From the NCBI RefSeq assembly GCF_009768975.1, contig NZ_CP035733.1, positions 2,710,001 through 2,774,000 of the forward strand: 64,000 nt of DNA, read 5' to 3'. Below are positions 15,714-27,970 of the stretch, one piece after another; position 1 is the first letter of the stretch; the number at the start of each line of letters is the position of its first letter. Under the pieces are notes generated by a model. That model saw nothing but the letters and a program-made list of their open reading frames with translations, was not told where the DNA came from and ran no database searches. The position numbers and the translations under genes were made by a program. Source of the DNA: Sphingorhabdus lacus. Lineage in GTDB: Bacteria; Pseudomonadota; Alphaproteobacteria; Sphingomonadales; Sphingomonadaceae.

Positions 15714-16895
15714 ATGTCGATTTCAGCGCACTATATTTCCGATGATCGCGGCTGGCCGGCATCCCAATGGACTGCGGAGCATGTCGCGGATATCGCCAGG
15801 CATCCATTGCCCGAAGCACCCTTCATCACTTCAGAAGATGTCGTATCCGTCGTTCCGGATCAGGATTTGTGGGACCTGTGGCCCCTGCAGAATGCCGACG
15901 GCACGGTTGCGAACATCACGGGCGGTGAGCTTTGGATGGTGTTGTCGGCCCCCCGTTTGCCAGACCCCGGCCTGCGCCATGACATTGCACGTACGCGGCT
16001 GCTCTTCCGGACAGGACGGACATGGGTTGATTGCGGCCTCCTGTTTCCAGATGACCTGAATCCCGGAACACGTGAATGGTCCGGCTCGGCCCGTTTCAAT
16101 GCGGAAACCGGCGAGGTGACAGCCTATTTCACGGCAGCAGGCCGTCGCAGCGACCCCACACCCAGTTTTGAACAACGGCTGTTCCAGACAACAGGACAAC
16201 TCAACCTTTCGGGCAGCCGCCCGACCATTTCCAACTGGTCCGCCGCAAGCCCCATCGTTGTTAATGATGGCAGCCTGTATGTCGATGTAGCCGTCGACCA
16301 GGGCGTACCCGGAAATATCAAGGGTTTCCGGGATCCTTATTGGTTCTGCGACCCAGTCGATGGCAATGCCTATATCCTGTTTACCGGGTCTCAACCGGGT
16401 TCACAGTCCAGCCATAATGGCGTCGTGGGACTGGCGGTGGCGCATTCCGCAATGGGTGAGGACGGATTCCGCCTGTTGCCACCTATCATTACCGCCGACG
16501 GTGTTTGCAACGAAATGGAACGTCCGCATTTGGTCCTGAAGGACGGCCTCTATTATCTCTTCTGGTCTTCGCAGAACGCCGTATTTGCCCCTGATGGTCC
16601 CAAGGGGCCAAGCGGGCTTTACGGCATGGTCGCGCCTTCGCTGACTGGACCCTATACACCGCTGAACGGTACAGGTCTTGTCATCGCGAACCCTGAAGCC
16701 GAGCCAAGGCAGGCATATTGCTGGCAAGTTCTGGACACGCTGGAAGTATATAGCTTCATCGACCATTGGGGACTGGAAGGCCGCGACATTTTTACTGATC
16801 CCCGATTGCAGCGCGACCAATTCGGGGGCACTATCGCACCTGTGTTAAAGATCGCTATCGACGGGAATACCACACAGCTTCTGGGTCTCGCATGA
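15714..16895 (+). CDS. GH68 family sucrase (levansucrase/invertase-type)
   Basis: Cleaves sucrose, releasing glucose and passing fructose to water or a growing fructan. 393 residues. The GH68 catalytic set is intact: nucleophile Asp54 in L-W-D-L-W-P, the E-W-S-G-S-A motif at 121-126, transition-state Asp207 in F-R-D-P-Y, and acid/base Glu269 in E-M-E-R-P-H. No signal peptide is visible, so it may act in the cytoplasm, although Zymomonas GH68 enzymes leave the cell without one. The stop overlaps the fructokinase start by 4 bases, tying it to use of released fructose. Hydrolysis versus polymerisation cannot be told from sequence. Confidence 0.92.
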   Translation: MSISAHYISDDRGWPASQWTAEHVADIARHPLPEAPFITSEDVVSVVPDQDLWDLWPLQNADGTVANITGGELWMVLSAPRLPDPGLRHDIARTRLLFRTGRTWVDCGLLFPDDLNPGTREWSGSARFNAETGEVTAYFTAAGRRSDPTPSFEQRLFQTTGQLNLSGSRPTISNWSAASPIVVNDGSLYVDVAVDQGVPGNIKGFRDPYWFCDPVDGNAYILFTGSQPGSQSSHNGVVGLAVAHSAMGEDGFRLLPPIITADGVCNEMERPHLVLKDGLYYLFWSSQNAVFAPDGPKGPSGLYGMVAPSLTGPYTPLNGTGLVIANPEAEPRQAYCWQVLDTLEVYSFIDHWGLEGRDIFTDPRLQRDQFGGTIAPVLKIAIDGNTTQLLGLA

Positions 16896-17785
16896 GTCGC
16901 ACCGTTTTTGGCTGTATCGAGGCCGGCGGAACGAAATTTGTGGCCGGCATAGTAGCGGGCCCCGATGATATTCGCGAAACCGCGCGCTTCGATACGACTA
17001 CACCGCAGGAAACAATCGGCGCAACGCTCGATTGGTTGCGCGCGGCGCAAGACCGCCATGGCGCACTAGCCGCAATCGGCATCGCAAGCTTCGGTCCGCT
17101 GGAACTGGATCGTCAAGCACCCGACTGGGGGCACATAACCGCGACAACGAAAAAGGGGTGGAGCAACACCGATTTTGCAGGATTGATCGGCCGTGCTCTC
17201 GACTTGCCTGTTGGATTCGACACAGATGTGAACGGCGCGGCACTTGCCGAGTCCCGATGGGGCGCCGGGCAAGGAAAGCCTGCCAGTGTTTATATTACGA
17301 TCGGCACCGGTATTGGCGGCGGCGCCATTGTCGATGGCAAGCCTCTTCAGGGTCTATCCCACCCCGAAATGGGCCATATCCGCGTTCCCCGCCACCCGCT
17401 GGATACGGCATTTCCCGGTATTTGCCCGTTTCACGGCGATTGCCTGGAAGGTCTCGCCAGTGGCCCCGCCATCAAGGCGCGGTGGGGCGCGTCCTTGTCC
17501 GAACTGCCATCCGACCACGAAGCGCATGATATCGTCGCCTGGTATTTGGCGCACATGGTGGTGACGCTCCAATCGATCATGGAGCCGGGCTGTGTCATCC
17601 TGGGCGGAGGCGTGACCGGAACGCCTGCGTTGCTCGACCGGATTCGCGCGCAGGCCGACAAATTGGGCGGGGGTTATTTCCGCGGAAGGGCATCCGACAT
17701 TATCGTGGCGCCCGGCCTTGGCGACAAAGCCGGATTACTCGGCGGATTGGCGCTGGCGCAGGATATTCTGACGTCGACTATTTAA
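16892..17785 (+). CDS. ROK family fructokinase
   Basis: Phosphorylates fructose with ATP. 297 residues. The ATP loop E-A-G-G-T-K-F lies at about residue 10, and the D-V-N-G-A-A-L-A-E sugar-binding motif and G-T-G-I-G-G-G phosphate motif near 110-140. The zinc-binding ROK signature (H-P-E-M-G-H, then C-P-F-H-G-D-C-L-E-G) near 155-190 is complete, as in Bacillus YdhR-type fructokinases. Coupled to the GH68 gene by a 4-base overlap. It is convergent with lacI, leaving only 6 bases between them. Confidence 0.92.
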   Translation: MSRTVFGCIEAGGTKFVAGIVAGPDDIRETARFDTTTPQETIGATLDWLRAAQDRHGALAAIGIASFGPLELDRQAPDWGHITATTKKGWSNTDFAGLIGRALDLPVGFDTDVNGAALAESRWGAGQGKPASVYITIGTGIGGGAIVDGKPLQGLSHPEMGHIRVPRHPLDTAFPGICPFHGDCLEGLASGPAIKARWGASLSELPSDHEAHDIVAWYLAHMVVTLQSIMEPGCVILGGGVTGTPALLDRIRAQADKLGGGYFRGRASDIIVAPGLGDKAGLLGGLALAQDILTSTI

Positions 17786-17791
17786 GAGCAC

Positions 17792-18805
17792 TTAGCTCGA
17801 TTGACGGATGACCAATTCGGGCTTTAGCACCACTGACCGCGTCGCTTCACCTGCAATGCGCCGGAACAACAGGTCAACGAGGTGTCCTGCACCAGCGGCA
17901 AGGTCCTGCTTCACTGTCGAAAGTGTTGGCACCGTCTGATTGGCAAAGGGCAAGTCATCATAGCCCACCACATGAACTTGACCCGGCACCTTAACGCCAT
18001 GTTCGGCGAGCGCGCGTAACGCGCTCATCGCGATCACGTCGGATGCGGCGATGATGCCGTTGGGGATCGACTGTGTGTCATCCAACCATTTGCTGATGGC
18101 AGGGTGCGCGGTTTCGGCGGTCAGATGGGCCGGCAAGATGCTGAGATTGTCTCCCAGACCTGCCGACGAAAGAGCGGCGCGGCATCCTTCAAGCCGCTCG
18201 GCAATTTCGGGCGCGACCGGATCGCCAAAGAATGCAAAATTGCGGCATCCCCGGTCAATCAGATGCTGTGCGGCGATTTCGCCACCCTTTCGGTTGTCCG
18301 AGCCAACAGAGCAGTGATTCTTGCCCGGCAAATTTGCCCCCCAAGCGACCAAAGGAAGATAGCGGCTGGCAACTTTTTCGATGACATCGATCTGGTCCGA
18401 CTGGCCAATTAATATGACGCCGTCCACACGACCGGAATCAACAACGCGGTTCAGCCAGTCCGGATCTTTCGGAATAACGCGTGACAAAAGAAGATCATGC
18501 CCCCTCTCGGTCAGCGCATCGGCCAGATGGCCCAGCATGGTCATGAAGAACGGGTCGGAAATATGCTGCCCGGTTTCATGGCCGAGTGGAATCAGTACGC
18601 CGATGGCGCCAGCGCGTTTGATCCGCAGGTTGCGCGCCATGACATTCGGCCGAAAGTCATGTTCGCGGGCGAGCTGCTGGATTTTCTCGCGGGTCTTTTT
18701 GGCAATCAGGTGGGAATCTGCCAAGGCGCGCGAAACTGTTCCGGGAGAGACCCCGGCCAAACGCGCCAAATCTGTGATATTCCGAACCCGCCCCTGACCG
18801 TCCAT
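17792..18805 (-). CDS. LacI family transcriptional regulator of the sugar locus
   Basis: 337 residues. The N-terminal helix-turn-helix (residues about 8-30) carries I-T-D-L-A-R-L-A-G-V-S-P-G-T-V-S-R-A-L, followed by the hinge helix and a periplasmic-binding-protein-like sensor domain (about 65-337). It is divergent from the MFS transporter gene, with an operator in the shared region. Related sites precede the GH68 gene and the TonB receptor, so it is the natural candidate to bind them. The effector is inferred to be a sucrose-type sugar or fructose, not shown. Confidence 0.93.
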   Translation of the reverse strand: MDGQGRVRNITDLARLAGVSPGTVSRALADSHLIAKKTREKIQQLAREHDFRPNVMARNLRIKRAGAIGVLIPLGHETGQHISDPFFMTMLGHLADALTERGHDLLLSRVIPKDPDWLNRVVDSGRVDGVILIGQSDQIDVIEKVASRYLPLVAWGANLPGKNHCSVGSDNRKGGEIAAQHLIDRGCRNFAFFGDPVAPEIAERLEGCRAALSSAGLGDNLSILPAHLTAETAHPAISKWLDDTQSIPNGIIAASDVIAMSALRALAEHGVKVPGQVHVVGYDDLPFANQTVPTLSTVKQDLAAGAGHLVDLLFRRIAGEATRSVVLKPELVIRQSS

Positions 18806-18894: not shown

Positions 18895-18934
18895 ATGCAA
18901 TCGTTTGTTGCAATATTTTCCCCAAGCGTTAGCA
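18895..18934 (+). promoter_or_regulatory. LacI-type operator in the lacI-transporter divergent region
   Basis: The core CAATCGTTTG (18898-18907) lies within ATGCAATCGTTTGTTGCAA. It nearly repeats the GH68 site and also has GCGTTA 12 bases downstream (11 at the GH68 site), so operator and promoter are conserved as a unit. A -35 (TTGTTG, 18905-18910) and a weak -10 (TTAGCA, 18929-18934) can be drawn with 18-base spacing. It may control both the transporter and lacI itself. Confidence 0.7.
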
Positions 18935-18977
18935 GATAATGAGGAGAGTGGCGGATTGTTCCGCACAGGAGAGAAAA

Positions 18978-20300
18978 ATGTCACAACCGGCGACCAAGCC
19001 ACATCTGTCCTTGTCCAAAATTCTGCAAATGAATCTAGGCTTCTTGGGCCTGCAATTCAGCTTTGGGCTGCAGCAGGGCAATATGGCGCCGATTTATTCC
19101 TATCTCGGCGCGGACGAGGCTTCCCTGCCGATTCTGCAACTGGCGGGTCCGATTACCGGATTGGTCGTGCAACCTATCATTGGCGCAATGAGCGATCGTA
19201 CAAATTCGAAATGGGGGCGACGCACGCCCTATTTCATTGTCGGTGCAATATTATGCTCGCTTGGCCTGCTGTTCATGCCTCTGTCGCAAAGCATATTGAT
19301 GGCAGCGAGCCTGCTTTGGATCCTGGACGCTGGCAATAACATCACGATGGAGCCTTATCGCGCCTATGTCAGCGACCGTCTGAATGAAGACCAGCACAAT
19401 GTCGGCTTTTTAACCCAGAGTGCCTTTACCGGGCTGGCCCAATGTCTTGCGCTCGGAACGCCAGCGCTGCTGGTCGGTCTGTTTGGCATGAACAAGGATG
19501 CCATTGGCGCCAACAATATTCCCGATACGGTCTATGTTGTCTTTACCATCGGAGCCGTTCTGTCGCTTTCCACCATATTATGGTCTGTCATTCGCGTACC
19601 AGAGCTGCCTCTGACGGAAAGCCAAAAGACCGAGATTGCGGCACAGCCAAAAACTGCTTCTGCAACCTTCAAGGAAATTGGTTCGGCGATCATGGAAATG
19701 CCACGGCCCATGCGCAAGCTGGGCGTGATGATGCTGTTCCAATGGTATGCGATGGGCATTTACTGGACCTATGTGACCTATTCGATTGCCCGATCGGTTT
19801 ACAACACCAGCGAACCGGTCAGCGACGGTTTCCGCAGCGCCGTGCTGACCAACGGGACAATGGCGGCCTTTTATAATGCCGTGGCTTTTGTGGCGGCGCT
19901 GGTGATGATGCCTTTGATCCGGAAAATGGGTGCACGCAAGGTGCATGCCGTGGCGCTGGTGGCAGGCGGTCTTGGTATGATGGCCATTCCCCAGATGACC
20001 GAAACATCTATGTTGTTCCCGGCCGCCATTGGTGTCGGCATCTGCTGGGGCAGTATCATGGGAACGCCCTATGTCATGCTGGCCAGCTGCATTCCGCCAC
20101 GCCGGACCGGGGTCTATATGGGGATTTTCAACATGATGATCGTAATCCCCATGCTGTTGAACGCCGCGACCTTCCCCTTCTATTATGAACCTTGGCTCGG
20201 GGGCGATGCCCGCAATGCGCTGGTACTCGCGGGTGCATTGCTGATATGCGCAGCAATTGCGGTTATGCGAGTGAAGGATAGCGAATTAGGTACCCCCTGA
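18978..20300 (+). CDS. MFS sugar transporter (SUC/GPH-like)
   Basis: Inner membrane sugar:cation symporter. 440 residues from the ATG that follows a strong AGGAGAG; a longer frame from 18939 lacks such support. About 12 hydrophobic segments. The sequence Q-Q-G-N-M-A-P-I-Y-S-Y-L-G-A and the loop S-D-R-T-N-S-K-W-G-R-R-T-P-Y after helix 2 match the maltose/sucrose transporters of proteobacteria and plant SUC proteins. Position between lacI and the TonB receptor fits import of a disaccharide across the inner membrane. Substrate inferred from the GH68 neighbour. Confidence 0.92.
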   Translation: MSQPATKPHLSLSKILQMNLGFLGLQFSFGLQQGNMAPIYSYLGADEASLPILQLAGPITGLVVQPIIGAMSDRTNSKWGRRTPYFIVGAILCSLGLLFMPLSQSILMAASLLWILDAGNNITMEPYRAYVSDRLNEDQHNVGFLTQSAFTGLAQCLALGTPALLVGLFGMNKDAIGANNIPDTVYVVFTIGAVLSLSTILWSVIRVPELPLTESQKTEIAAQPKTASATFKEIGSAIMEMPRPMRKLGVMMLFQWYAMGIYWTYVTYSIARSVYNTSEPVSDGFRSAVLTNGTMAAFYNAVAFVAALVMMPLIRKMGARKVHAVALVAGGLGMMAIPQMTETSMLFPAAIGVGICWGSIMGTPYVMLASCIPPRRTGVYMGIFNMMIVIPMLLNAATFPFYYEPWLGGDARNALVLAGALLICAAIAVMRVKDSELGTP

Positions 20301-20361
20301 ACGGCCTAAAGTCCGGAAAATTGTGACGATAATGCCACAGAAAAGCCTCGGATAAAATTTT

Positions 20362-20412
20362 ATGCAAAGGTTTGCGAAAAATTCTTGCAAACGATTTCCA
20401 AATCACTATCAA
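20362..20412 (+). promoter_or_regulatory. Two tandem LacI-type operator-like sites before the TonB receptor
   Basis: The cores CAAAGGTTTG (20365-20374) and CAAACGATTT (20388-20397) are 23 bases apart, about two DNA turns. Each matches part of the operator consensus from the other two sites (13 of 19 and fewer). A possible -35 TTGCAA (20385-20390) and -10 TATCAA (20407-20412) overlap the second site. The match is weaker than at the other promoters, so assignment is tentative. Confidence 0.45.
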
Positions 20413-20465: not shown

Positions 20466-22985
20466 ATGAAGATATCCCGTTTGCATGGTTATGCATCAGC
20501 GATCGCGTTGTGCACGGCATTGGTTGCCGTTCCGGCATTTGCGCAGGATGAGGCCGCAGCTGCTGATGAAGAAGTTTCCAGCCTTGACGAAATTGTGGTG
20601 ACCGCCTCGGGCCGTGACCAGACCAAGATCGAAACCTCGGTATCTGTTACCAGCATCGACGCCCAGCTTATCCAGGATTTTCAGCCGAGCTCCGAAGCTG
20701 AAGTCTTCAAACTGATTCCCGGCATTCAGGTGCCCGGAACATCCGGCCCTGGTGGTAACTCCAATATCGCGGTGCGCGGTCTGCCGGTTGCTACCGGTGG
20801 TGCTCCTTTCGTGCAATTGCAGGAAGACGGCCTGCCAGTTGTTCTGTTCGGCGATATCCAGTTCGGCAATAACGACTATTGGACACGTTTTGACCCGTCG
20901 GTCGCCAGCATCGAAGCTGTACGTGGCGGTTCTGCCACGACCTTTGCATCGCAGGCCCCAGGCGCTGTTATCAACTATATCAGCAATTATGGCCGTGAAG
21001 AAGGCGGCTATGTCGAGCTCAAAAAAGGTATCGATTACAGCGAAACCCAGTTGAACTTCCGCTATGGCGGCGCACTGACCGACAGCATGAACTTCCATGT
21101 TGGTGGTTCTTTCAAGCGCGGTCGCGGCCCGCTCAACGCTGGCTATAATCTTAGCGACAGCATTCAGGTAAAGGCGAATGTCACCAAGGAATTTGGCGAT
21201 GGCAAAGGCTATTTCCGCCTGCTGTTCAAATATGCCGATACGGCAGAACCCAACTACACAGGTGCACCAGCCTTGGCGACAATCAGTGGTGGCAAGGTCA
21301 GCAATGTGCGTCCTTTCCCTGGCTTTGATGGCCGCACGGACACCAACTACTCGCTCTATAATCAGAGCTTCCTGATCTATAACCGTCAGGGCACGCTGGA
21401 GCGCGTCAAAATGGACGGGATCACCACCAAGCAGAAGTCAATCGGTGCCTCGTTCCACTATGAGTTGAGTGACAATATCACTGTCGACAACAACGCCCGC
21501 TATTCCGATCTGAGCGGTGGCTTTGCATCGCCCTTCCTTGGGATCGCGACAACAGCTAGCGTTCTGGGTTCTACCGTCAATGGCCGTACCGTGCAGGCAA
21601 TCCGCTATGCGAGCGGACCCAATGCCGGACAGCTCTACACAGGCACCTATCTCGACAATAACGTGAATGTGAAGACGAATATCCGCGATCTGGGCAGCTT
21701 TGTGAACGATCTGACCATCGCTGGTAAATTTGAAACGGGCTTTGCAGATCTGACTGCGCGTGTCGGCTATTTCTACATGGACCAGACCATCGCAATGGAC
21801 TGGCATGTTAACAAATCGCTGCGCGAACTCAGCGGCAATAACCCTTCGCAGCTTGACCTGTTTGACAGCGCAACATCGACCGCAGCTGCCAACCAGATCA
21901 CGCAAGAAGGTATCTCTGGCTATAACAATAACTGGGGCAATTGCTGCGCACGTGATTATGATCTGTCCTACACCAACACTGCGCCATATGCGCAGTTGGT
22001 GCTCGACAATGACACCTTCAATCTGGACGGCAGCGTTCGTTTTGAAAAGGTCAAGGCATCGGGCTACACCATTGCCGGAGGCCCGGAGTTCAACGTAAAT
22101 TCCAATGGCATCCTCATCCCCACGATGACCGCCAACGGCACACGCGAAGTTCTTGACTATAGCCGCAGCTACACGAGCTGGACCGCAGGTGCCTTGTGGA
22201 AAGCAACGCCTGATCTGTCGATCTTCGGTCGTGCATCGCGTGGTGGCCGCTTCAACAGCGATCGTCAAACCGTCAGCGGAAAATTCAACCCGGATGGCAG
22301 CCTCTGCACCCGTGCACAGGCAACCGCGCTGGCCTGTACCGACGGCGTTACGCCTTCGGTCGACTTCGTGAACCAGTATGAAATCGGTTTGAAGAACCGG
22401 GGCAACTTGGGTGATGGCCGTTACACCGTTGAGTTCACCCTGTTGAAGGGCGATTTCAAGCGTAGCGACTTTGAACCAACCACGACCGGTATCTGCCCCG
22501 GCGGCGGTTGCGTCATCGACAACAGCTTCAAGACCCAGGGTGCCGAATTCTTCGCCACACTGCGTCTGGGCGGTTTCAACTTCATCGCCAACGCAACCTA
22601 CACAAAGGCGAAGCAGAAGTTCACGTCGACCCGCAATGGGACCCAAGTGGCAGGCTCGGCCAATTTCGGCCGCGCGCTGAACATTCCGGACCTCAGCTAC
22701 TCGCTGTCGGCCAATTATGACGTAATGGAAATTGCAACCATCGGCGTCACCGCAGTGGGTCAGTCGAGCACTTTTGACGGCGCGTTGGTCTATCCGGGCA
22801 AAACGGTCTTCAACACCAATTTGAAGGTCATGCCGCTCGAAAATCTGGAAGTGGGCCTCAATGTCTACAACCTGTTCAACACCTATGACTCGCGCGGTAA
22901 CGGCAACGGAACCTTTGGCGGCGGCATTACCGGCACACCGGTAATCGGCCGCACGCTGACCGGTTCGGTGCGTTTCAGCTTCTAA
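20466..22985 (+). CDS. TonB-dependent outer membrane receptor (sugar locus)
   Basis: Outer membrane active transporter. 839 residues. A signal peptide is cleaved near residue 26 (A-F-A then Q-D). A short acidic linker and a TonB box (E-I-V-V-T-A-S) follow, then the plug domain (about 55-180, with G-N-S-N-I-A-V-R-G-L-P) and a long beta-barrel ending in the terminal aromatic G-S-V-R-F-S-F. A strong ribosome site (AGGGGAGG) precedes the ATG. It lies directly after the MFS gene with operator-like sequence in the 165-base gap, so it likely imports the same sugar. The operon-level parallel is the Xanthomonas sucrose uptake locus. Confidence 0.94.
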   Translation: MKISRLHGYASAIALCTALVAVPAFAQDEAAAADEEVSSLDEIVVTASGRDQTKIETSVSVTSIDAQLIQDFQPSSEAEVFKLIPGIQVPGTSGPGGNSNIAVRGLPVATGGAPFVQLQEDGLPVVLFGDIQFGNNDYWTRFDPSVASIEAVRGGSATTFASQAPGAVINYISNYGREEGGYVELKKGIDYSETQLNFRYGGALTDSMNFHVGGSFKRGRGPLNAGYNLSDSIQVKANVTKEFGDGKGYFRLLFKYADTAEPNYTGAPALATISGGKVSNVRPFPGFDGRTDTNYSLYNQSFLIYNRQGTLERVKMDGITTKQKSIGASFHYELSDNITVDNNARYSDLSGGFASPFLGIATTASVLGSTVNGRTVQAIRYASGPNAGQLYTGTYLDNNVNVKTNIRDLGSFVNDLTIAGKFETGFADLTARVGYFYMDQTIAMDWHVNKSLRELSGNNPSQLDLFDSATSTAAANQITQEGISGYNNNWGNCCARDYDLSYTNTAPYAQLVLDNDTFNLDGSVRFEKVKASGYTIAGGPEFNVNSNGILIPTMTANGTREVLDYSRSYTSWTAGALWKATPDLSIFGRASRGGRFNSDRQTVSGKFNPDGSLCTRAQATALACTDGVTPSVDFVNQYEIGLKNRGNLGDGRYTVEFTLLKGDFKRSDFEPTTTGICPGGGCVIDNSFKTQGAEFFATLRLGGFNFIANATYTKAKQKFTSTRNGTQVAGSANFGRALNIPDLSYSLSANYDVMEIATIGVTAVGQSSTFDGALVYPGKTVFNTNLKVMPLENLEVGLNVYNLFNTYDSRGNGNGTFGGGITGTPVIGRTLTGSVRFSF

Positions 22986-23024
22986 ACCAAAACCGAAGGG
23001 TCACACCTTCGACAGGATAAGAGG

Positions 23025-23058
23025 CGGGTCCGGCGGCGCAAGCTTCCGGACCCGTTTT
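23025..23058 (+). terminator. Rho-independent terminator after the TonB receptor
   Basis: A 9-bp perfect stem (CGGGTCCGG with CCGGACCCG) and a 12-base loop are followed by TTTT. It separates the receptor from the halogenase gene, which therefore needs its own promoter or relies on read-through. Confidence 0.75.
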
Positions 23059-23091
23059 CGTTGCAAAAACAAGTAGCGGGCGTAACGGGAA

Positions 23092-24597
23092 ATGATGACG
23101 GACAAGCGTATCGAATCGATTGTAATTGTCGGCGGCGGTTCGGCCGGATGGATGACGGCGGCCGCGTTGTCGAACAGCCTGCGGCAGGGGTGCAAGATCA
23201 CCCTGATCGAGTCCGACGATATCGGCACCGTCGGTGTAGGTGAGGCCACGATTCCGCCTATCCGCACGTTTAACGAAATGCTCGGCATTGATGAACGCGA
23301 GTTCGTCAAATCGACCCAAGGCTCGTTCAAGCTGGGGATCGAGTTTGTCGACTGGGGCCATTTGGGCAACCGCTATTTCCACCCCTTCGGACCACATGGC
23401 CGGGCGTTCGATATCGTCGGACTCCACCATTATTGGCTGAAGGCGCGCGAGGCCGGAGAGACGGCGGCCTTTGACGAACATTGCATGGCATGGGCACTCG
23501 CGCGGGCAGGGCGCTTTACGCGGCCCGGGCAAGACCCGCGCAATGTGCTGTCGACCTTTGACTATGCCTATCATTTCGACGCCGGGCTCTACGCACGTCA
23601 TCTGCGGCGTTATTCCGAGGAGCGTGGCGTTTTACGGGTCGAAGGCAAAATCGCTTCAGTCGCCCAAAATGGCGAAAGCGGATTTGTCGAGACGGTTCAA
23701 CTGGAGGATGGCCAGGTCTTTGCCGCCGATCTGTTTATCGACTGCTCCGGATTTCGCGGGCTTCTGATCGAGGGCAGTTTACAAACGGGCTACGAAGATT
23801 GGTCGCATTGGTTGCCCTGCGACCGGGCCGTCGCCATGCCTTGTGCGAAGGGTGGCGCGTTTACGCCCTACACCCGTTCCACCGCCCGCGCCGCCGGGTG
23901 GCAATGGCGCATCCCGCTGCAGCACCGGACAGGCAATGGCTATGTCTATTGCAGCCAGTTTATATCGGACGAAGAAGCTGAGGCAACGTTGCGCGGCAAT
24001 CTGGATGGGGAGGCGCTCGCCGGGCCAAACCGCTTGCGCTTTACCACGGGTCGGCGGAAGAAATTCTGGAACAAGAATGTCATCGCTATCGGCCTGTCGA
24101 GCGGCTTTATGGAGCCTCTCGAATCGACCAGCCTACATTTGATCCAAGCGGGCATTTCGAAACTTTTGGCGCTGTTTCCGGACAAGGGCTTCAACCCGCT
24201 GCTGGCCGACGAATACAACCATATTGCGGTGACCGAATTTGAACGCATCCGCGATTTTCTGGTGCTGCACTATAAACTCACCACCCGCGACGACAGTGAA
24301 TTGTGGCGCTATTGCGCGCATATGGAGATCCCCGACACGCTGCAGTTCAAAATCGACCATTTCAAAAGCTATGGCCGCCATATCGCACGGGACATGGATT
24401 TGTTCGGCCCGCCCAGTTGGCTCGCCGTGCATATCGGACAGGGCAATATTCCCGATGCAGTCGATCCGCTGTTCGACTATCGCGGGATCGATGGACGCGA
24501 ATGGCTGGGCAAGTTGCGAGGCGCGATGCAGTTTGAAGCCGAGCGCCAGCCGAGCCACCAGCAGTTTATCGACCAGCATTGCAAGGCAGGCAGCTAA
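23092..24597 (+). CDS. Flavin-dependent tryptophan-halogenase family protein
   Basis: 501 residues. The FAD loop G-G-G-S-A-G-W is at 14-20. Lys80 in S-F-K-L-G-I-E-F aligns with the catalytic lysine of RebH/PrnA. The halogenase signature W-x-W-x-I-P is intact (W270 to P275), and E-P-L-E-S-T-S at 341-347 matches the acidic residues near the active site. On sequence it should be able to form and use hypohalous acid. Members beside TonB receptors, such as BrvH from Brevundimonas, halogenate indole-type compounds rather than free tryptophan; the natural substrate is unknown. An alternative ATG lies one codon further. The oxygenase-like gene follows after 3 bases. Confidence 0.88.
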
Positions 24598-24600
24598 ACC

Positions 24601-25959
24601 GTGGACGCCGCCGCGCTGTTCCGGACAGCCTGTCAGGCGCGGCAGAACCAGGATATCGAAAGCGCGATCGGGGCGATTGACGATGCGCAGCGGCTGGCCC
24701 CTGATGACCCCCAGATCGCAGCGGTCCGCGCGCTTTTATATTATGAGAGTTGGCGACCGTCCTCCGACCTTTTTGCTCACGCCCTGGCGCTGAATCCCGA
24801 AGATATGCAACTTCGCCGCAATCAGGCGTTGGCTTTGGTATCGGAAGGGGAGCGTGACGCTGCCGAAGCCTTGCTCGAACGCGAATTGCAGCGGCAGCCG
24901 GTCTGGTCGGAAGGGCATAGCACCTTGTCGCGCATCCGGCTTACTGCGGGCGATGCTGCAAATTATGACCGCAGTTTCGCCGACGCCTGCGCCCGTCAGG
25001 ATGGTTCGTTTTCGCTGCATCTCGCCTGGTTCCATCAGGCCGCTTTGATAAAGGATTGGGATAAAGTCAGGTCGATTCTGGCCAAAGCAGAATTACGCTA
25101 TCCCGGACAAAGCGCGTTGCGTTCCGCGCGTTTCTATCTCGCGGCGGAGTCGGGAGATGAGGCCGGTGCCGAAGCTGCTTATGGCGATGTTGCCAACTTG
25201 GCCGATCCGGGTCTGGATCTGTGCAAGGTGCGTTACCATCTGCGCAAGGGCCATTGGGGTGCCGCAGAAGAATGCGCGCGCCGTTATATCGGAACGCCGG
25301 TTGGCGCGATGTTCTGGCCTTATCTGTCGCTCATATGGCGCGTGACGGACAATGCGCTGGCGCACTGGCTGGATGGTGCGCCGCCCTATTTGTCTGTCAT
25401 TGATTTGGACGTTTCGTCGAGGCAAGTTTCTGATCTCGCGGATGTGCTGCGCCGCTTGCATATCCTGCAGGCGCCCTATCCCGAGCAATCGGTACGCGGC
25501 GGCACGCAAACCGACCGACCGCTGTTTTTTCACCCCGATCCCGCGGTGCAGGCCATACGTCGCACGATCATGAATGCGGTGCGCGGCTTTGTGGAGGCGC
25601 TGCCCCCCCCTGATCCGCGGCACCCTTTGCTGGGGGCCAACCGTTCCACAATGCTGCTGGACGGCAGCTGGTCGGTTCGACTTACGGGTAAAGGCTTTCA
25701 TGCCAGCCACAGCCATGTGAACGGATGGATCAGTTCGGCTTTTTATGTTGCCTTACCCGACCAACCGGGACCACCGCCGTCTGGCCATTTCGCGCTGGGC
25801 ACGCCGCCGCCGGAACTGGGGCTTGAACTGCCAGCCTATCAAACGGTCGAGCCACGCCCGGGGCGGCTGGTTTTGTTCCCGTCCACCATGTGGCACAGCA
25901 CCATTCCCTTTGACGCGGGGGAGCGGCTGACCATCGCTTTTGATATTAAGCGTCCATGA
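24601..25959 (+). CDS. TPR protein with C-terminal putative 2OG-Fe(II) oxygenase domain
   Basis: 452 residues with a GTG start 3 bases after the halogenase stop. The first half (about 1-250) is TPR-like, rich in Ala, Leu and Arg. The C-terminal part (about 260-452) resembles the PF13759-type 2-oxoglutarate/Fe(II) oxygenase fold: a G-F-H-A-S-H-S-H-V-N-G-W metal-ligand region near 368, then P-G-R-L-V-L-F-P-S-x-M-W-H with the distal His, and a final Arg-containing strand. Such TPR-oxygenase proteins recur next to halogenase-like genes and TonB receptors in Caulobacterales and Sphingomonadales. Substrate unknown. Confidence 0.82.
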   Translation: MDAAALFRTACQARQNQDIESAIGAIDDAQRLAPDDPQIAAVRALLYYESWRPSSDLFAHALALNPEDMQLRRNQALALVSEGERDAAEALLERELQRQPVWSEGHSTLSRIRLTAGDAANYDRSFADACARQDGSFSLHLAWFHQAALIKDWDKVRSILAKAELRYPGQSALRSARFYLAAESGDEAGAEAAYGDVANLADPGLDLCKVRYHLRKGHWGAAEECARRYIGTPVGAMFWPYLSLIWRVTDNALAHWLDGAPPYLSVIDLDVSSRQVSDLADVLRRLHILQAPYPEQSVRGGTQTDRPLFFHPDPAVQAIRRTIMNAVRGFVEALPPPDPRHPLLGANRSTMLLDGSWSVRLTGKGFHASHSHVNGWISSAFYVALPDQPGPPPSGHFALGTPPPELGLELPAYQTVEPRPGRLVLFPSTMWHSTIPFDAGERLTIAFDIKRP

Positions 25960-25978
25960 AGCTCTTGCTCTTGACGGG

Positions 25979-27970
25979 ATGCCCATTAACAAGACCGTCA
26001 TGTTAGGCGTTTGCTATTATCCCGAACATTGGCCCGAACAGATCTGGGCTCGCGATGCGCAGCGGATGCGCGATCTGGGCCTCACCTATGTGCGCATCGG
26101 TGAGTTCGCCTGGGGCCGTTTAGAAAAGAGCGAGGGCCAGTTCACTTGGGAATGGATGGACCGCGCTATTGACACATTGGGAGAGGCCGGGCTGAAGGTG
26201 GTTCTGGGCACACCCACGGCGACACCGCCCAAATGGTTGTGCGAAAAATATCCGGACATTTTGCCGGTAGATACCCACACCGGCCAGCGCCGTGACTTCG
26301 GTTCGCGCCGCCATTATGATTTTTCCAGCGAAACCTATCTTGTTCAGGCGGAACGCATCAGCGCAGCGATGGCGCAGCGTTACGGCTCACATCTCCATGT
26401 CGCAGGATGGCAGACCGATAATGAACTCTGCTGCCATGATACAACGCAAAGCGCGTCACCGGCGGCGCGTGATGCATTCCGGATATGGTGCGCCGAACGC
26501 TACGGGACAGTCGAGGCACTGAATGCCGCCTGGGGCAATGTGTTCTGGTCGATGGAATATGACAGCTTTGACCAGATCGAGCTGCCATTCTTCACGGTAT
26601 GCGAAACAAATCCTGCACACCGTCTCGCTTTTCGCCGCTTTGCATCGGATCAGGTGGTGCGCTTTCATGACGTCATGATTGCCGCTATCCGCGCGCACGC
26701 AGGCGAGGGGCAATGGGTCACACATAATATCATTCCGCCTGCAACGACCGGCGTCGATAATGCCGGGCTGACCCGCGGTCTCGATTTTGTAAGCTATGAT
26801 AATTATCCGCTCGGCTTTTCAGACCAGTTGATGGCCAGGGCACCGGCTTCGGATTGGCAGCCCTTCATGCGGACGGGGCACCCTGATTTGGCGGCGTTGA
26901 ATTTCGATTCGGTGCGCGGGCTTTCCAAAGGGGCCTGGTGGGTGATGGAGCAACAGCCTGGCCCGGTAAACTGGGCTCCCCACAATCCACGCCCGGCGCC
27001 CGGCATGATACGGCATTGGACGTTGCAGGCCTTCGCCCATGGCGCGGCCTGCGTGGCCTATTTTCGCTGGCGGCAGGTGCCCTTTGCGCAGGAACAGATG
27101 CATGCGGGATTGCTGCGTCCCGATGACCAGCGCGCACCTGCATGGCCAGAAGTTGAACAGGTTGTGCGTGAAATGGCACTGCTGGGCGATCTGTCGGCAG
27201 TATCCGAAAAAGCGCCGGTAGCGTTGCTGGTTGATCCCGCTTCGGCGTGGGTTGACGATATCGAGCGGCAAGGTGCGGGTTATCGTTATCCGGCGGTTGT
27301 GTTCCAATATTATGGCGCGCTGCGGGCCTTGGGGCTGGATGTGGATATCCTGCCTGCGGGCGATGTGCCGCTGGACGGATATAAGTTGATCGTCGCTCCG
27401 ACGCTTGCAATGCCGGATGAAACAACCGTTGGGACATTGCGGGCGAGTGATGGCTTGCTTCTTTTCGGACCGCGTTCGGGCGCAAAGACACAGGAGTTTT
27501 CCATTAGCGACGGTTTACCGCCTGGCCCGTTGCGGGAATTTGTACCTGTAAAAGTCATCGCAGTAGAGACATTGCGCCCGGACTGTACCGGGGGTCTTCA
27601 TTATCAAGGCGAGCATTTCGAAAGCGGTCGCTGGCGCGAAACAATTGAAGCAGGCGATACGGAAATCGTGGCAACCTACGAAGATGGTGCTCCTGCTGCC
27701 ATTCGTTCGGGCCGCAGCACCTATATAGCGACATTGACCGATGACGCTTTTCTGAAAAGCGTTTTGGTTCGGCTGTGCGCCGAAGCGAATATTCCGGTCA
27801 CGCCGTTGCCGCCGACCTTGCGTTTACGCCGCCGCGGCGATCTGAGCTTTGCCTTCAACTTGTCGGATGAATCTACCCATGCTCCAGCATCCGAAGACGC
27901 AGAATTCGTAATCGGCGGTCGCCAGATCGAACCCTTTGGTGTCGCTGTCTGGCGATCAGCCGCCATTTAA
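25979..27970 (+). CDS. GH42 beta-galactosidase
   Basis: Releases terminal beta-galactose from small galactosides; cytoplasmic, no signal peptide. 663 residues from the ATG at 25979, chosen because the longer frame starts at TTG inside the upstream gene. The ATG at 26000 is also possible. The (beta/alpha)8 domain carries the acid/base Glu149 in Q-T-D-N-E and the nucleophile Glu324 in W-V-M-E-Q-Q-P-G. A trimerisation domain and a small C-terminal beta domain follow. The N-terminal G-V-C-Y-Y-P-E-H-W-P is the family hallmark. It lies 19 bases after the oxygenase-like gene, so probably co-transcribed; convergent with prfC. Confidence 0.93.
   Translation: MPINKTVMLGVCYYPEHWPEQIWARDAQRMRDLGLTYVRIGEFAWGRLEKSEGQFTWEWMDRAIDTLGEAGLKVVLGTPTATPPKWLCEKYPDILPVDTHTGQRRDFGSRRHYDFSSETYLVQAERISAAMAQRYGSHLHVAGWQTDNELCCHDTTQSASPAARDAFRIWCAERYGTVEALNAAWGNVFWSMEYDSFDQIELPFFTVCETNPAHRLAFRRFASDQVVRFHDVMIAAIRAHAGEGQWVTHNIIPPATTGVDNAGLTRGLDFVSYDNYPLGFSDQLMARAPASDWQPFMRTGHPDLAALNFDSVRGLSKGAWWVMEQQPGPVNWAPHNPRPAPGMIRHWTLQAFAHGAACVAYFRWRQVPFAQEQMHAGLLRPDDQRAPAWPEVEQVVREMALLGDLSAVSEKAPVALLVDPASAWVDDIERQGAGYRYPAVVFQYYGALRALGLDVDILPAGDVPLDGYKLIVAPTLAMPDETTVGTLRASDGLLLFGPRSGAKTQEFSISDGLPPGPLREFVPVKVIAVETLRPDCTGGLHYQGEHFESGRWRETIEAGDTEIVATYEDGAPAAIRSGRSTYIATLTDDAFLKSVLVRLCAEANIPVTPLPPTLRLRRRGDLSFAFNLSDESTHAPASEDAEFVIGGRQIEPFGVAVWRSAAI

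Follow-up and report, generated by a model that had tools for sequence, protein, structure and literature searches.

Organization of the locus

The window analysed here, a 64,000-nucleotide stretch (positions 2,710,001-2,774,000) of the 3.46 Mb single-contig genome of Sphingorhabdus lacus, carries a gene for a flavin-dependent halogenase of the BrvH type, set between the gene for a TonB-dependent receptor (TBDR) and that for a tetratricopeptide repeat (TPR) protein with a C-terminal oxygenase-like domain. The linkage of these enzymes to the receptor, and what it may say about their substrate, is the subject of this work. Gene identities were established by Pfam and TIGRFAM profile searches of the open reading frames (ORFs) of the window, and gene starts were judged by codon scoring; since the codon-scored caller missed genes in some loci (e.g., L076 and L098), neighbour counts were repeated by hidden Markov model searches on all ORFs. 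The features of the locus, with glycoside hydrolase families abbreviated as GH and the major facilitator superfamily as MFS, are as follows.

15714..16895, +, GH68 levansucrase/invertase-type enzyme of the sucrose locus (PF02435, E 1e-58)
16892..17785, +, ROK family kinase (PF00480, E 5e-59)
17792..18805, -, LacI-family regulator (PF00356/PF13377)
18939..20300, +, MFS transporter related to sucrose symporters (PF07690; TIGR01301 GPH_sucrose)
20466..22985, +, TBDR, 839 aa (PF07715, PF00593; family 'TBDRc')
20880..20882, +, codon of receptor Trp139 in the plug, a candidate target only, from the comparison of linked and unlinked receptors
21933..21935, +, codon of receptor Trp490 in the barrel region, likewise a candidate target only, from the same comparison
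22983..23091, +, stable RNA hairpins from the receptor stop to the halogenase start (z -4.47 against 200 shuffles)
23092..24597, +, BrvH-type flavin-dependent halogenase, 501 aa (PF04820, E 6e-194; K80, WQWRIP at 270-275)
24601..25959, +, TPR protein with C-terminal PF13759 oxygenase-like domain, 452 aa (H370xH372...H432...R442)
25940..27970, +, GH42 beta-galactosidase with all three GH42 domains by Pfam, accessory and outside the conserved module

Receptor and halogenase are separated by 106 bases, and the halogenase stop at 24597 is followed after 3 bases by the GTG start of the TPR-oxygenase at 24601. The listed GH42 ORF opens at TTG 25940, with codon scoring favouring ATG 25979 as the start. 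An earlier sequence-only reading of this DNA had placed a halogenase, a TPR-oxygenase and a GH42 enzyme here, the first two 3 bases apart, with a TonB receptor and a glycosidase nearby; all three ORFs and the spacing were recovered at the same coordinates, and Pfam places the TBDR upstream and the GH42 enzyme downstream. The GH68 enzyme, the ROK kinase, the LacI regulator, the TBDR and an MFS transporter that weakly matches sucrose symporters (TIGR01301, E 8e-25, 87.6 bits, below the cut-off of 511) together point to a sucrose or fructan locus. The closest named locus, that of Sphingorhabdus profundilacus, encodes a halogenase 95% identical to that of the window and has the same gene order, GH68-ROK-LacI-MFS-TBDR-halogenase-TPR/oxygenase-GH42.

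Linkage of BrvH-type halogenases to TonB-dependent receptors

Across 80 named halogenase loci, the best 80 of 584 matches by similarity, a TBDR lies within 5 kb in 73 and within 10 kb in 74, and it is present in 60 of the 65 loci with full 5-kb flanks. In the laboratory model Caulobacter vibrioides (L248), the gene of a TIGR01782-like receptor is followed by one for a halogenase. Within the same 5 kb, GH13 enzymes were counted at 25 of the 80 loci, LacI regulators at 20 and GH42 at a single one, so that the part in the function which the sequence-only reading had given to GH42 is not supported. The association recurs within the family Sphingomonadaceae, where 40 of 59 genomes have a PF04820 match over the cut-off: of 60 further neighbourhoods picked around PF04820 matches, 55 contain a TBDR within 5 kb, four contain none and one (L129) has it at 7.3 kb. 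When 39 Sphingomonadaceae genomes are counted by receptor type, a TIGR01782 receptor is found no more than 10 kb away from 67 of 77 halogenases, and a halogenase is present at 41 of 105 such receptors; the lists behind these counts omit a single TIGR01782 row that scored below the cut-off, as well as halogenase rows with less than about 300 bits.

Linkage follows the receptor lineage. On a tree of 100 Sphingomonadaceae TIGR01782 receptors, 45 of them linked, the linkage state requires 4 changes, whereas 200 shuffles never gave fewer than 26 and averaged 33.3; when the named loci are included, 7 changes suffice for 152 rows. The inheritance of whole gene runs contributes to this pattern, yet the pattern crosses sugar types, extending over maltose, xylan and beta-glucan receptors. 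The same is visible within the genome of the window, whose eight PF04820 genes fall into four loci, each with a TBDR, which makes the association more than chance; seven of the genes lie within 5 kb of the receptor and the eighth, in the maltose locus, at 8.2 kb. Judged by their enzymes, these loci are of the sucrose type (the window), the maltose/starch type (LacI, MFS, two GH13, GH97), the xylan type (GH10, GH3, a sugar kinase, four halogenases, DUF6445) and the beta-glucan type (GH16, LacI, MFS), all of them for sugars without an aromatic ring. The halogenase thus belongs to the receptors and not to one sugar. Among the Pfam-scanned genes at the four loci there is no core biosynthetic gene, although short ORFs were not searched systematically.

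The RNA hairpin between the receptor and the halogenase is likewise recurrent: in the named loci, 41 of 46 gaps of this kind give z below -2, whereas the same holds for 9 of 55 other gaps on the same strand and for 3 of 23 that follow a halogenase. As a halogenase-specific signal it was rejected: it is also found in 7 of 10 gaps between a receptor and a non-halogenase gene, and therefore belongs to the end of the receptor gene. Such a hairpin would be consistent with a high output of receptor and a low output of enzyme.

The receptor-halogenase-oxygenase trio and its sister loci

The receptor of the window has no match to TIGR01782 (cut-off 310), a profile on which the genome's three other receptors with a linked halogenase reach 582-657. 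Its own arrangement, a TBDRc receptor with a halogenase and a TPR-oxygenase, recurs in 9 of the 13 named loci of highest similarity, which were found via the halogenase (L181-184, L186-189, L192); the remaining four comprise an oxygenase fragment at the edge (L193), two short contigs (L185, L191) and a locus with another receptor type (L190). The hosts of the trio include Sphingorhabdus, Novosphingobium, Rheinheimera, Aliiglaciecola, a member of the Caulobacterales, and an alpha- and a gammaproteobacterial genome. Receptor-only searches returned six core receptors (the window, L292 = L077, L293 = L075, L305/L317 = L096, L361 and L362) which represent three alphaproteobacterial families. Each of the six is accompanied by the halogenase, in five cases within 1.5 kb and in L292 beyond the TPR-oxygenase, as seen in L077. 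The conserved linkage of receptor, halogenase and oxygenase on which the sequence-only reading had made its proposal depend is thus borne out, both by the trio and by the receptor linkage of the 80 loci.

In Sphingomonadaceae, twelve members of the window receptor's family (L294-L304, L306) stand between an MFS transporter and GH68 with neither halogenase nor TPR-oxygenase, which demonstrates that such sucrose loci exist without the pair; sucrose-type receptors were classed as unlinked on 1.5-kb flanks, and L268 was left out of this class, as SapC and JmjC genes adjoin it and a halogenase lies beyond the fetched flank. A related arrangement is the sucrose carbohydrate-utilization (CUT) locus suxABCR of Xanthomonas campestris, which, as the window, combines a TBDR, an inner-membrane transporter, a sucrose-splitting enzyme and a repressor, but in which suxB is an amylosucrase in place of GH68 and ROK (PMC1790865). 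The main text of that paper on carbohydrate TBDR loci does not contain the word 'halogenase', and the sister loci with the window's core genes have neither enzyme beside the receptor.

Three LacI-operator-like sites occur at 18896-20399, in both promoter gaps of the locus. These are the only 3 in the whole window against 3.9 expected, and with the count at chance level no claim is made beyond their place in the two gaps.

The halogenase and the TPR-oxygenase

The sequence-only reading of the first enzyme as a flavin halogenase with its full catalytic equipment holds. The protein has GGGSAG at 14-19, Lys80, W270-Q-W-R-I-P275 and E341-PLEST, with E344 as the catalytic Glu by alignment; the halide site T346-S347 in EPLESTSL corresponds to T351-S352 of BrvH, Ser replacing Gly at the second position. 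BrvH, earlier named as the nearest studied case, is indeed the best solved relative (6frl, E 2e-154), followed by 9luq (E 7e-146) and Xcc4156 (6y1w, E 3e-140); all three share GxGxxG, Lys and WxWxIP with the window enzyme, and the Thr-Ser halide motif is as in BrvH. The alignment with 6frl contains only a few gaps of one or two residues, which bears, at the level of alignment, on the short loops and open site. Catalytic Lys, WxW and EP(L/M)E are retained in 91 of 101 halogenases from the fetched Sphingomonadaceae loci; Lys is lost in 8, and the position is not covered in 2.

The authors of the published work on this group suggest a peptide-type substrate. BrvH brominates indole slowly and refuses free Trp, its authors doubt that indole is the natural substrate, and its solvent-open active site was likened by them to that of the peptide halogenase MibH (PMC5945002). 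Xcc4156 also has an open active site and does not accept free Trp, and the idea of a peptide-type substrate was extended to it (PMC7336383). The word TonB does not appear in the main texts of these two papers, whereas the halogenase of the window is linked with a receptor as well as with a TPR-oxygenase. Profile matches to QhpG, LodB and GoxB, flavoproteins of protein-Trp modification, are weak, with scores far below the cut-offs, and the halogenase is not a member of these families; QhpG has a structure similar to that of halogenases and acts on a Trp within a protein, which it hydroxylates (PMC7876137).

Two groups of relatives deserve mention on their own. Degenerate Lys-less homologues adjoin intact halogenases (L009:8701-10248 on the minus strand, L071, L074, L087, L093, L102, L104 and L107), several of them in xylan-type loci, and are possibly non-catalytic partner subunits. 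A second subfamily (L010:16013-17521), about 33% identical to the window enzyme and with EPLEAT for EPLEST, sits at the end of several maltose-type gene runs.

In the TPR protein, the PF13759 domain ('2OG-FeII_Oxy_5') covers residues 356-448 (E 1.6e-19, 70.5 bits against a cut-off of 27). The sole Pfam TPR match falls below its cut-off (21.2 against 23.5 bits), while a profile built from 10 family rows finds TPR chains at E 5.5e-36. H370-x-H372, H432 and R442 are invariant in 10 of 10 homologues. The earlier description of a TPR protein with a 2-oxoglutarate (2OG)-Fe(II) oxygenase-like domain therefore stands as to both domains and fails as to the iron triad HxD/E...H: the motif is HxH...H, with no acidic residue, and to call the protein an established 2OG-Fe(II) enzyme would be premature. 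A TPR part is joined to an oxygenase domain in collagen prolyl 4-hydroxylase, AspH and prolyl 3-hydroxylase, and this combination is repeated in the window protein, which differs from those hydroxylases in having HxH...H in place of HxD/E...H; none of them was matched in the single-protein search, whose oxygenase match was the uncharacterised 2rg4 (E 0.001). Neither the TPR-oxygenase nor the halogenase has an N-terminal signal sequence apparent by eye.

Tryptophan positions in linked receptors

Linked and unlinked sucrose-type receptors differ at several Trp positions. At position 139, in the plug motif GNNDYW, Trp is found in all 15 linked core receptors that cover the position and in 0 of 38 receptors without an adjacent halogenase, of which 37 have Phe and 1 has Leu. 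Trp490 occurs in 20 of 20 linked receptors (16 core, 4 deep) against 6 of 38 unlinked, and Trp572 in 16 of 16 core and 2 of 4 deep linked against 5 of 38 unlinked. The Trp pattern in these receptor sequences fits a Trp-directed enzyme, the three positions being candidates only. Trp490 was discarded as a strict marker, since its 1 of 23 among unlinked Sphingomonadaceae receptors became 6 of 38 once the phylum was sampled, and a Trp target universal to linked receptors was ruled out for the TIGR01782 type, where, at the best loop column, Trp is found in 53 of 97 linked receptors compared with 2 of 55 unlinked ones. In the TIGR01782 comparison, L116_17127 and L119_13053, which are second receptors in their loci, went to the control set together with two others, and receptors shorter than 700-850 aa were dropped.

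Other enzymes beside receptors

Of 99 Sphingomonadaceae genomes, 70 contain PF13759. From among the TPR-length PF13759 matches, 20 loci were chosen outside the halogenase loci (L131-L150), and they lack a halogenase because of that choice; in 14 of them the gene is at most 3.2 kb from a receptor that belongs to another family. A cupin_8/JmjC neighbour occurs within 10 kb at 12 of the 80 halogenase loci, with H159xD161 in 12 rows; it is related by sequence to the protein hydroxylases FIH, JMJD5 and JMJD7, although its best match, ahead of these, is C2orf60, which we take to be TYW5, a tRNA enzyme. The sole strong cupin_8 gene of the window's genome is 15 kb from the xylan receptor. DUF6445 neighbours are found at 13 of the 80 loci, with H451xD453...H539...R555 conserved in 13 rows, and SapC at 2. 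The DUF6445 motif (PF20043; L072:16441-17202 and relatives), HxD...H...R, is like that of an iron/2-oxoglutarate oxygenase, Pfam giving no function for the family.

In the window's genome, 6.7% of which lies within 1.5 kb of a TBDR, all 4 TPR-sulfotransferases are within this distance (L378-L381); three other sulfotransferases are 9.9, 107 and 118 kb from a TBDR, and six cytochrome P450s are all at least 16.9 kb away. In L186, a TPR-sulfotransferase stands between the halogenase and the TPR-oxygenase.

Discussion

The receptor linkage across bacteria and sugars suggests that the receptor protein, and not an imported compound, is the target. Specifically, the halogenase and the TPR-oxygenase may both be dedicated to the receptor and modify its polypeptide prior to export, a reading that draws on genomic linkage and to which we assign a probability of about 0.45. 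Both enzymes would be made in the cytosol from what is probably the receptor's own operon, presumably at a level below that of the receptor. The halogenase would act on receptor Trp, by bromination or a related flavin oxidation, at a site plausibly among the residues typical of linked receptors (139, 490, 572); the TPR-oxygenase would hydroxylate the receptor, its TPR part holding the protein; and the modification might tune ligand binding or stability.

Several points weigh against the proposed receptor modification, the evidence for which is indirect and the target and chemistry of which are putative. Six of the 80 halogenase loci, 4 of them with full 5-kb flanks, show no TBDR. Position 139 is Phe or Tyr in the four deep linked receptors (L100, L232, L242, L252), and the Trp139 swap coincides with the single linkage change on the sucrose-family receptor tree, so that this family offers only that one change for independent-pairs testing; as many as 48 columns separate the clades, or 27 by a stricter cut, one of them Trp. 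The halogenase-linked TIGR01782 receptors have no Trp position common to all of them, and the independent-pairs test of their loop Trp columns, though in the right direction, gives at best 3:0 (p 0.25), for two of the columns listed, with too few informative pairs. The QhpG-type matches may reflect the shared FAD fold only, and the arguments from JmjC, DUF6445 and sulfotransferase genes concern enzymes other than those of the window.

The alternative proposed by the sequence-only reading is that the pair acts on a small aromatic molecule, such as an aglycone, an indole or a phenol, imported by or with the sugar. The glycosidase and receptor in the gene run and the in vitro bromination of indole by BrvH speak for it (PMC5945002). 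The indole activity, however, is low and doubted as natural by the same authors, GH42 is not conserved, no core biosynthetic gene was recognized among the scanned genes at the four loci, and such halogenases accompany receptors for sugars without aromatic parts, along the receptor lineage. The aglycone reading is thereby weakened; it is not supported by the analysis and appears unlikely.

It is less probable again that the enzymes act on another protein or peptide of the uptake system, such as a TonB partner, a surface lipoprotein or a short peptide, with the receptor merely sharing the gene run. The peptide-type substrate suggested for BrvH and Xcc4156 (PMC7336383) would suit such a target, as would the missing common Trp of TIGR01782 receptors; against it, receptor and halogenase nearly adjoin in the window, and no counted family is as constant as the receptor, although the search did not extend systematically to short ORFs.

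Freshwater contains little bromide, and the catalytic Lys is lost in some family members, both of which would accord with a redox or sensory flavoprotein that does not halogenate in vivo and whose linkage is regulatory only. The retention of Lys, WxW and EP(L/M)E in 91 of 101 members argues for catalysis and makes this quite improbable. Simple carry-along, in which the genes are inherited with receptor loci and have no receptor-specific role, accords with the sister sucrose receptors that do without both enzymes, but is very improbable given the halogenase at all six core receptors in three families and the preserved catalytic residues.

No paper on the halogenase-receptor link was found in the open-access literature searched by titles and abstract openings, supplements and subscription papers lying outside its scope. 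In the relevant part of PMC11337851 halogenase and TBDR appear only as separate transcripts, with a speculation on halogenase in virus-receptor interactions; PMC11340318 has a halogenase among its transposon hits, with no comment in the passage concerned; and the word 'halogenase' is absent from PMC4911050. Some Caulobacter or Xanthomonas sugar-uptake work may list such genes.

More tentatively than for the window's own pair, one may imagine a programmed receptor maturation in which interchangeable locus-encoded enzymes modify TBDRs of many Proteobacteria before export, the set comprising BrvH-type halogenases acting on Trp, oxygenases of the TPR-PF13759, JmjC/cupin_8 and DUF6445 types, and TPR-sulfotransferases. 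For the natural substrate of BrvH-type halogenases, the neighbouring outer-membrane receptor is a specific and testable candidate, and the sister sucrose receptors with and without the enzymes provide a ready comparison. If the proposal is true, halogenated or hydroxylated side chains would tune sugar uptake in a novel manner and would add a new class to the known protein modifications of bacteria, and the receptor-maturation system would supply the missing natural role of BrvH-type halogenases.

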